Position numbers and translations under genes: made by a program
Assembly (NCBI GenBank): GCA_021850805.1
Contig: JAJZKO010000006.1
Coordinates: forward strand, 1-52,013
From: Microcaldota archaeon
GTDB lineage: Archaea > Micrarchaeota > Micrarchaeia > Micrarchaeales > CABMGC01
Direction of reading: 5' to 3'
DNA: 52,013 nucleotides
Part shown: one piece after another, positions 36,472-36,712 of the stretch
How positions within the stretch are numbered: the stretch's first letter is position 1
Layout of the letters: every line of letters starts with the position of its first letter
The notes under the pieces: model-generated
Databases searched by the model: none
Seen by the model: only the letters and a program-made list of their open reading frames with translations
Told to the model about the DNA's origin: nothing

Positions 36472-36590
36472 GAAAAGCCCTATGGTAACTGCCCTTACGA
36501 AATCATCAAACCTCAGAAGCTCACCATGCTACACAGAAATGATAATCTGACAGCAATATTAATTAATAAAACTTTGTAATATATCTGTGC

Positions 36591-36712
36591 GCCGGGATGG
36601 CAGAACCAGGTAAATGCGCCAGAAAAAACAGGCGAAACTCGAGATCTGGTGGCCTTTGGCTTTCTGGGTTCAAAATGCATCAGCAAGATGCATGAATCTC
36701 CCAGTCCCGGCG
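36591..36712 (+). tRNA. tRNA-Ser(CGA) with two non-canonical BHB introns
   Basis: Acceptor GCCGGGA/TCCCGGC, D stem GCA/TGC, anticodon stem CCAGA/TCTGG, 14-base variable arm with stem GCC/GGC, T stem CTGGG/CCCAG, discriminator G. Intron 1 (36623-36636, 14 nt) lies between positions 30 and 31. Its central helix is CGCC (36617-36620) with GGCG (36631-36634), with bulges AGA and AAA. Intron 2 (36675-36698, 24 nt) lies in the T loop between positions 59 and 60. There the T stem is the outer helix, TTCA/TGAA the central helix, AAA and TCT the bulges, and TGCATC/GATGCA the inner helix. Removing both gives an 84-nt tRNA with anticodon loop CTCGAGA and T loop TTCAAAT. Type II arm, G73 and CGA anticodon identify Ser. 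No CCA encoded. Confidence 0.93.

Follow-up and report, generated by a model that had tools for sequence, protein, structure and literature searches.

The window, the whole 52,013-nucleotide stretch of DNA that was analysed, comes from the genome of a Micrarchaeota archaeon (G000) and carries at 36591–36712 a sequence that reads as a class II tRNA-Ser(CGA) once introns of 14 nt and 24 nt are removed. With a probability of roughly 0.94, we regard this as a functional, single-copy gene whose 122-nt precursor is cut by an epsilon2-type splicing endonuclease and joined by RtcB, giving an 84-nt tRNA that reads UCG. The gene sequence, its structures, their conservation among relatives and the presence of both enzyme genes are direct observations. 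The first-pass annotation had placed the shorter intron between positions 30 and 31 and the longer one between 59 and 60, with helices CGCC/GGCG (bulges AGA and AAA) and TTCA/TGAA (bulges AAA and TCT), and had given an 84-nt spliced product with the loops CTCGAGA and TTCAAAT; all of this is found in the sequence as described. The features are:

36557..36571 (+): AT-rich TATA-like element, a likely promoter, approximately 20–34 bp upstream of the gene
36591..36622 (+): exon 1, positions 1–30 (acceptor 5′ strand, D arm and 5′ anticodon stem to G30), from in silico splicing, the covariance match and relatives
36617..36620 (+): CGCC, exon strand of the motif 1 central helix (4 bp), followed by bulge AG/A and pairing with 36631–36634, as in 30/30 distinct introns of relatives
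36623..36636 (+): intron 1, 14 nt, AAAAAACAGGCGAA, between 30 and 31, its junction set by relatives whose introns begin with T or C and by the intron-less orthologues in G030 and G078
36631..36634 (+): GGCG, intron strand of the motif 1 central helix, followed by bulge AA/A; invariant, with a variable intron loop
36637..36674 (+): exon 2, positions 31–59 (anticodon CGA at 36640–36642, variable arm, 5′ T stem)
36669..36672 (+): TTCA of the T loop, exon strand of the motif 2 central helix, pairing with 36693–36696
36675..36698 (+): intron 2, 24 nt, ATGCATCAGCAAGATGCATGAATC, in the T loop between 59 and 60; loci L140 and L171, which lack it, join TTCGAA-TCCC here
36676..36692 (+): inner helix of motif 2, TGCATC(AGCAA)GATGCA, 6 bp
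36693..36696 (+): TGAA, intron strand of the motif 2 central helix, followed by bulge TC/T; helix complete in 28/31 distinct introns
36699..36712 (+): exon 3 (T60, 3′ T stem, acceptor 3′ strand, discriminator G73); CCA is not encoded

The assignment to class II tRNA-Ser rests on a long variable arm with covarying stem pairs, G73 and the CGA anticodon. Read by eye, TATA-like strings (TTTATAA or TTAATAA) occur at a similar upstream distance in most relatives. Both neighbouring genes, for a HAD-like hydrolase and a family 2 glycosyltransferase, lie on the opposite strand and are uninformative about the tRNA gene.

Two common finders miss the gene in its raw form, as had been anticipated of standard tRNA searches: ARAGORN makes no call, even with canonical introns allowed, and Rfam RF00005 misses the gene at the gathering score. 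With the T-loop intron removed, ARAGORN calls Ser(cga). With both introns removed, a check that the first-pass annotation had proposed in similar form, it finds an intron-free tRNA-Ser(cga), and a normal tRNA is restored. A covariance model of 20 mature tRNA-Ser sequences matches exactly 36591–36712 (67 bits, E = 2.5e-13); the model includes the spliced form of this gene, and the relatives also stand without it. The match is far from chance. The training of the tRNAscan-SE 2.0 intron models on other phyla (PMC8450103) is a possible reason for the under-annotation of such tRNA genes.

All 882,516 bases of the G000 assembly (25 contigs, 83.7% complete) were scanned with the covariance model, and no second tRNA gene with a CGA anticodon was found in this 83.7%-complete genome. 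A DNA search with the mature tRNA likewise gave a single place. Another intact tRNA-Ser(CGA) gene would have spoken against the first-pass reading, and none was found, in an assembly of which some 16% is missing and could hold one, so that its absence is no proof. UCG accounts for 2074 of the 177,368 codons in the long open reading frames of G000.

By the definition of a bulge-helix-bulge (BHB) motif, a 4-bp exon–intron helix with 3-nt bulges on opposite strands, intron 2 has the full form and intron 1 a relaxed one. Intron 1 forms a bulge-helix-loop, in which CGCC/GGCG closes a 10-nt loop containing the 5′ site AG/A, with AA/A on the 3′ side. In G000 it has no inner helix and an outer helix of about 1 bp, in line with the earlier description of a motif nearly devoid of both, and its cutting depends on a relaxed enzyme specificity for this reason. 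Among family orthologues this intron is 11–15 nt long and always ends in GGCGAA, save for a single GGCGAG. The string GGCGA(A/G) is found in 30/30 distinct first introns, as is the CGCC/GGCG helix, which is found in 0/30 when the strands are slid; the loop between the splice site and GGCG shows no such constraint. The helix forms in the minimum-free-energy fold of 32 of the 34 precursors. Longer forms of intron 1, with an inner helix, were read by eye in G054, G055 and G178.

Intron 2 lies in a strict BHB motif, with the T stem outside, TTCA/TGAA as the central helix, bulges AA/A and TC/T, and a 6-bp inner helix. Across relatives it ranges from 14 to 45 nt and has diverged almost wholly, except for the bases that pair with TTCA and the A-rich 3′ bulge. 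The central helix is complete in 28 of the 31 distinct introns and in 0–1 of 31 when slid, where a random 4-mer gives 0.019. It appears in the minimum-free-energy fold of only 4 of 32 precursors; in the G000 fold an internal loop between the T stem and the inner helix takes its place. This is weak counter-evidence, because nearest-neighbour energy rules put a penalty on 3-nt bulges and take no account of the enzyme, and given the strong conservation of the helix we read the low count as a limit of the energy model.

To establish the distribution of the introns, 59 family genomes were searched at the DNA level with the mature tRNA as query, and 36 orthologues were parsed. Intron 1 is present in 34 of these and intron 2 in 32; G016 and G020 have intron 1 only, and G030 and G078 have neither. 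Orthologues that lack both introns, or intron 2, join their exons exactly at the proposed junctions (CGCCAG/ACTCGAG and TTCRAA/TCCC). Dozens of relatives retain both introns, which marks these as genuine and means that the broad-range splicing enzyme of G000 must remove them. The first-pass view of two non-canonical BHB-type introns in one tRNA-Ser(CGA) thus holds, except that the arrangement is not peculiar to G000, the sole member of its genus in the genome set: it is family-wide, and intron 1 is order-wide.

Perfect matches to GGCGARACTCGARAYCTGG, the 3′ end of intron 1 together with the exon that follows, were found in 82 genomes of the order's two families and in one genome outside the order. 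Beyond the order, the 30/31 site mostly lacks an intron (G171, G188 and G274), and G171 has a T-loop intron alone. Genes of f2, the sister family, generally lack intron 2; G237, whose gene resembles that of family f1, is an exception. From these comparisons, intron 1 appears to be old, at least at the level of the order, with a patchy distribution beyond it, and intron 2 appears patchier, with probable gain, loss or gene replacement.

Several relatives show variant arrangements. A tRNA-Ser(CGA) in G181 (L223) has three apparent introns, at 30/31, 37/38 and 59/60, and a tRNA-Leu(CAA) in G166 (L224) has a 30/31 intron ending in GGCGAA together with a T-loop intron, that is, the same intron type in a different isotype. 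At seven loci of family f2 (L184, L185, L186, L188, L192, L196 and L215), Ser(CGA) looks to have given way to a second, recoded copy of Ser(UGA) that carries its 37/38 intron, and the 30/31 form was not seen in those genomes.

It is conceivable that the locus is a decaying tRNA gene with two insertions, UCG being read by a working tRNA-Ser(CGA) elsewhere or by tRNA-Ser(UGA). The unspliced anticodon stem and T loop are broken, gene finders miss the gene, the genome is incomplete and a Ser(UGA) gene is present, all of which would fit such decay. Against this, the two insertions persist across more than 20 genera, compensatory changes hold the acceptor, variable and T stems among relatives, the only conserved intron bases are those of the splice motifs, and the scan of G000 yielded no second CGA gene. 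Conservation across relatives strongly contradicts a pseudogene, which we reject as highly improbable. Cutting of intron 1 at 31/32 in an otherwise real gene is about equally improbable. In G000 alone the intron can be placed at 30/31 or 31/32 with an identical mature sequence, because A is both the first base of the intron and the base that follows it. Relatives with T or C at the start of the intron (L138, L144, L149, L159, L162 and L170 among them) decide the matter: a cut at 31/32 would leave T31 or C31 opposite T39 and break pair 31–39, and only the 30/31 cut restores A31–T39 in all relatives. The 31/32 site was rejected on this evidence.

A variant of the preferred reading, that of a spliced and functional gene, adds an outer helix to motif 1, in which ACCAGGT of the D loop would pair with ATCTGGT of the 3′ anticodon strand before the cloverleaf forms. 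This 7-bp helix is present in the minimum-energy fold of the G000 precursor, is fully complementary in about two-thirds of the genes with intron 1 and is folded in about 20 of 34. In the remaining third or so it is broken, by ATCCGGT or GGC, with no compensating change. The helix shows no covariation, and the same form of the D loop also occurs in tRNA-Ser genes that lack intron 1. A conserved outer helix of this kind is therefore not supported, and we consider it improbable. Also unlikely is the proposal that the 11–15-nt intron at 30/31 is an old mini-intron under selection in one isoacceptor, across the order and beyond, because the interruption (also that of the T loop) is useful. If this were true, the use might be, for example, to bar integrating elements from the tRNA gene or to order the maturation of the tRNA.

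The genome also encodes the enzymes that splicing would need. P0001 (435 amino acids, on contig C20) has as its best PDB match, by a wide margin, the ARMAN-2 endonuclease (4FZ2/9W2K; E = 7e-153 over 383 residues), to which (4FZ2) it aligns from residue 53 to the end, and both the N-terminal and catalytic Pfam domains are found. In the ARMAN-2 enzyme, Tyr236, His251 and Lys282 are catalytic, Tyr160 and Lys161 belong to the ASL, and Arg275 and Trp384 stack on the bulge (PMC12397907). P0001 conserves the ASL GSYK motif (with its Tyr-Lys), the catalytic Tyr, His and Lys, and the bulge-binding Arg and Trp; its three fused units, catalytic triad and ASL Tyr-Lys place it in the epsilon2 type. The endonuclease that the first-pass annotation had suggested looking for is thus present, as a close homologue of the ARMAN-2 enzyme, which is reported to cut relaxed motifs (PMC4033280, PMC12397907). 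The P0001 gene matches metagenome-assembled genomes (MAGs) of Micrarchaeota at 58–68% identity, and the earlier mention of an ARMAN-type archaeon agrees with the position of G000 among these. An RtcB ligase is encoded at C4:38705–40009.

From what is known of these enzymes, maturation by cutting, joining and charging would proceed as follows. The 122-nt precursor would be transcribed from the upstream archaeal promoter, and the epsilon2-type endonuclease of G000 would cut after the second base of each bulge. At 30/31 the cut would fall in the relaxed bulge-helix-loop in which exon CGCC pairs with intron GGCG; at 59/60 it would fall in the complete bulge-helix-bulge that TTCA of the T loop and intron TGAA form atop the T stem. 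RtcB would then join the exons into the 84-nt tRNA, with normal loops and reading UCG. Intron 2 interrupts the T loop, and enzymes of tRNA end processing that recognise the T arm may therefore be unable to act until it is removed.

Such introns are common in G000. Four other tRNAs, Leu(CAA), Arg(CCT), Arg(TCT) and Ala(GGC), have T-loop introns and Leu(TAA) has one in the D loop (the five genes are at C4:40354, C16:23417 on the minus strand, C19:36808, C20:48732 and C21:10123), and several further tRNAs have anticodon-loop introns. The tRNA-Ser(CGA) gene is hence one of many, which fits the enzyme.

The tRNA-Ser(UGA) genes show a different feature. In G000 (C16:5–124 on the minus strand, and C25:4–123) and in family f2 (L184–L219 in relatives), the 37/38 intron has a box D-like CTGA, followed after about 4 nt in most cases by GTGATG, and the apparently recoded Ser(CGA) copies of family f2 have the same layout. 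Upstream of CTGA lie bases complementary to the anticodon loop, in a register that puts nucleotide 34 at N+5 in 27/27 genes read, and the guide base has changed with the anticodon, from A to G, in 6 of 7 CGA copies. This pattern makes the intron a candidate intron-encoded box C/D guide for nucleotide 34, whose pairing could also be structural. The layout resembles that of the tRNA-Trp intron guide (PMC7994747, PMC11408192), and the literature searched holds no report of an intron-encoded box C/D guide in tRNA-Ser.

Other tRNA loci in G000 are also unusual. The locus at C4:44066–44152 (minus strand), called Ser(tga) by ARAGORN, reads as a tRNA-Ile(UAU) with a 13-nt intron at 37/38; AUA makes up about 74% of the isoleucine codons in long open reading frames (10,565/14,193). 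An odd class II-like tRNA at C25:86000–86083 (plus strand) has an anticodon read as TAC (Val), and an ordinary Val(TAC) lies on C9. Identical tRNA-Pro(CGG) and tRNA-Ser genes are found at the ends of several contigs (C2, C3 and C24; C16 and C25), a pattern suggestive of assembly breaks at tRNA genes.

Multi-intron tRNA genes and an epsilon2-type endonuclease were described for ARMAN-1 and ARMAN-2 by Fujishima 2011 and Hirata 2012, as cited in PMC4033280 and PMC6379350, and the structure of an epsilon2-type endonuclease with RNA is available (PMC12397907). Multi-intron tRNAs with introns at non-canonical positions have been documented in both ARMAN-1/2 and Thermoproteales (PMC4033280), and one review includes the T loop in its list of intron positions (PMC6379350). 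G000 shares with ARMAN-1/2 the phylum, the enzyme type with its ASL residues, several introns per tRNA, non-canonical positions and relaxed BHL/hBH motifs, but represents a different genus-level lineage. In the Thermoproteales, going by the summaries of Sugahara 2008 in PMC4033280 and PMC8450103, multi-intron tRNA genes occur with (alpha-beta)2 endonucleases; those summaries describe up to three introns per tRNA, non-canonical positions and a broad-specificity endonuclease, as here, whereas that enzyme has a CSL rather than an ASL loop, the phylum is different, and the G000 introns look long inherited in one isoacceptor. Canonical archaeal 37/38 BHB introns have the same 4-bp central helix, 3-nt bulges and cuts after the second bulge base, and differ from the G000 introns in position and from intron 1 in that it nearly lacks flanking helices. 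The literature searched, a set that does not extend to Fujishima 2011, describes neither the 30/31 and 59/60 pair in tRNA-Ser(CGA) with its conservation in the family nor the small intron 1 shared across the order.

As multi-intron tRNAs and the epsilon2 enzyme are already known in ARMAN-1/2, it is well supported that this tRNA-Ser(CGA) is an added example and not a new mechanism. It adds a very small, relaxed intron with deep conservation and clean natural proof of its junctions. The epsilon2 endonuclease gains a tiny predicted natural substrate, an intron of 11–15 nt with a 4-bp helix that shares its precursor with a strict BHB, and the minimal RNA requirement of the enzyme becomes directly testable. 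Non-canonical tRNA introns are often regarded as recent. The Micrarchaeota gene indicates that they can persist over long periods and that common tools will miss tRNA genes in this phylum.
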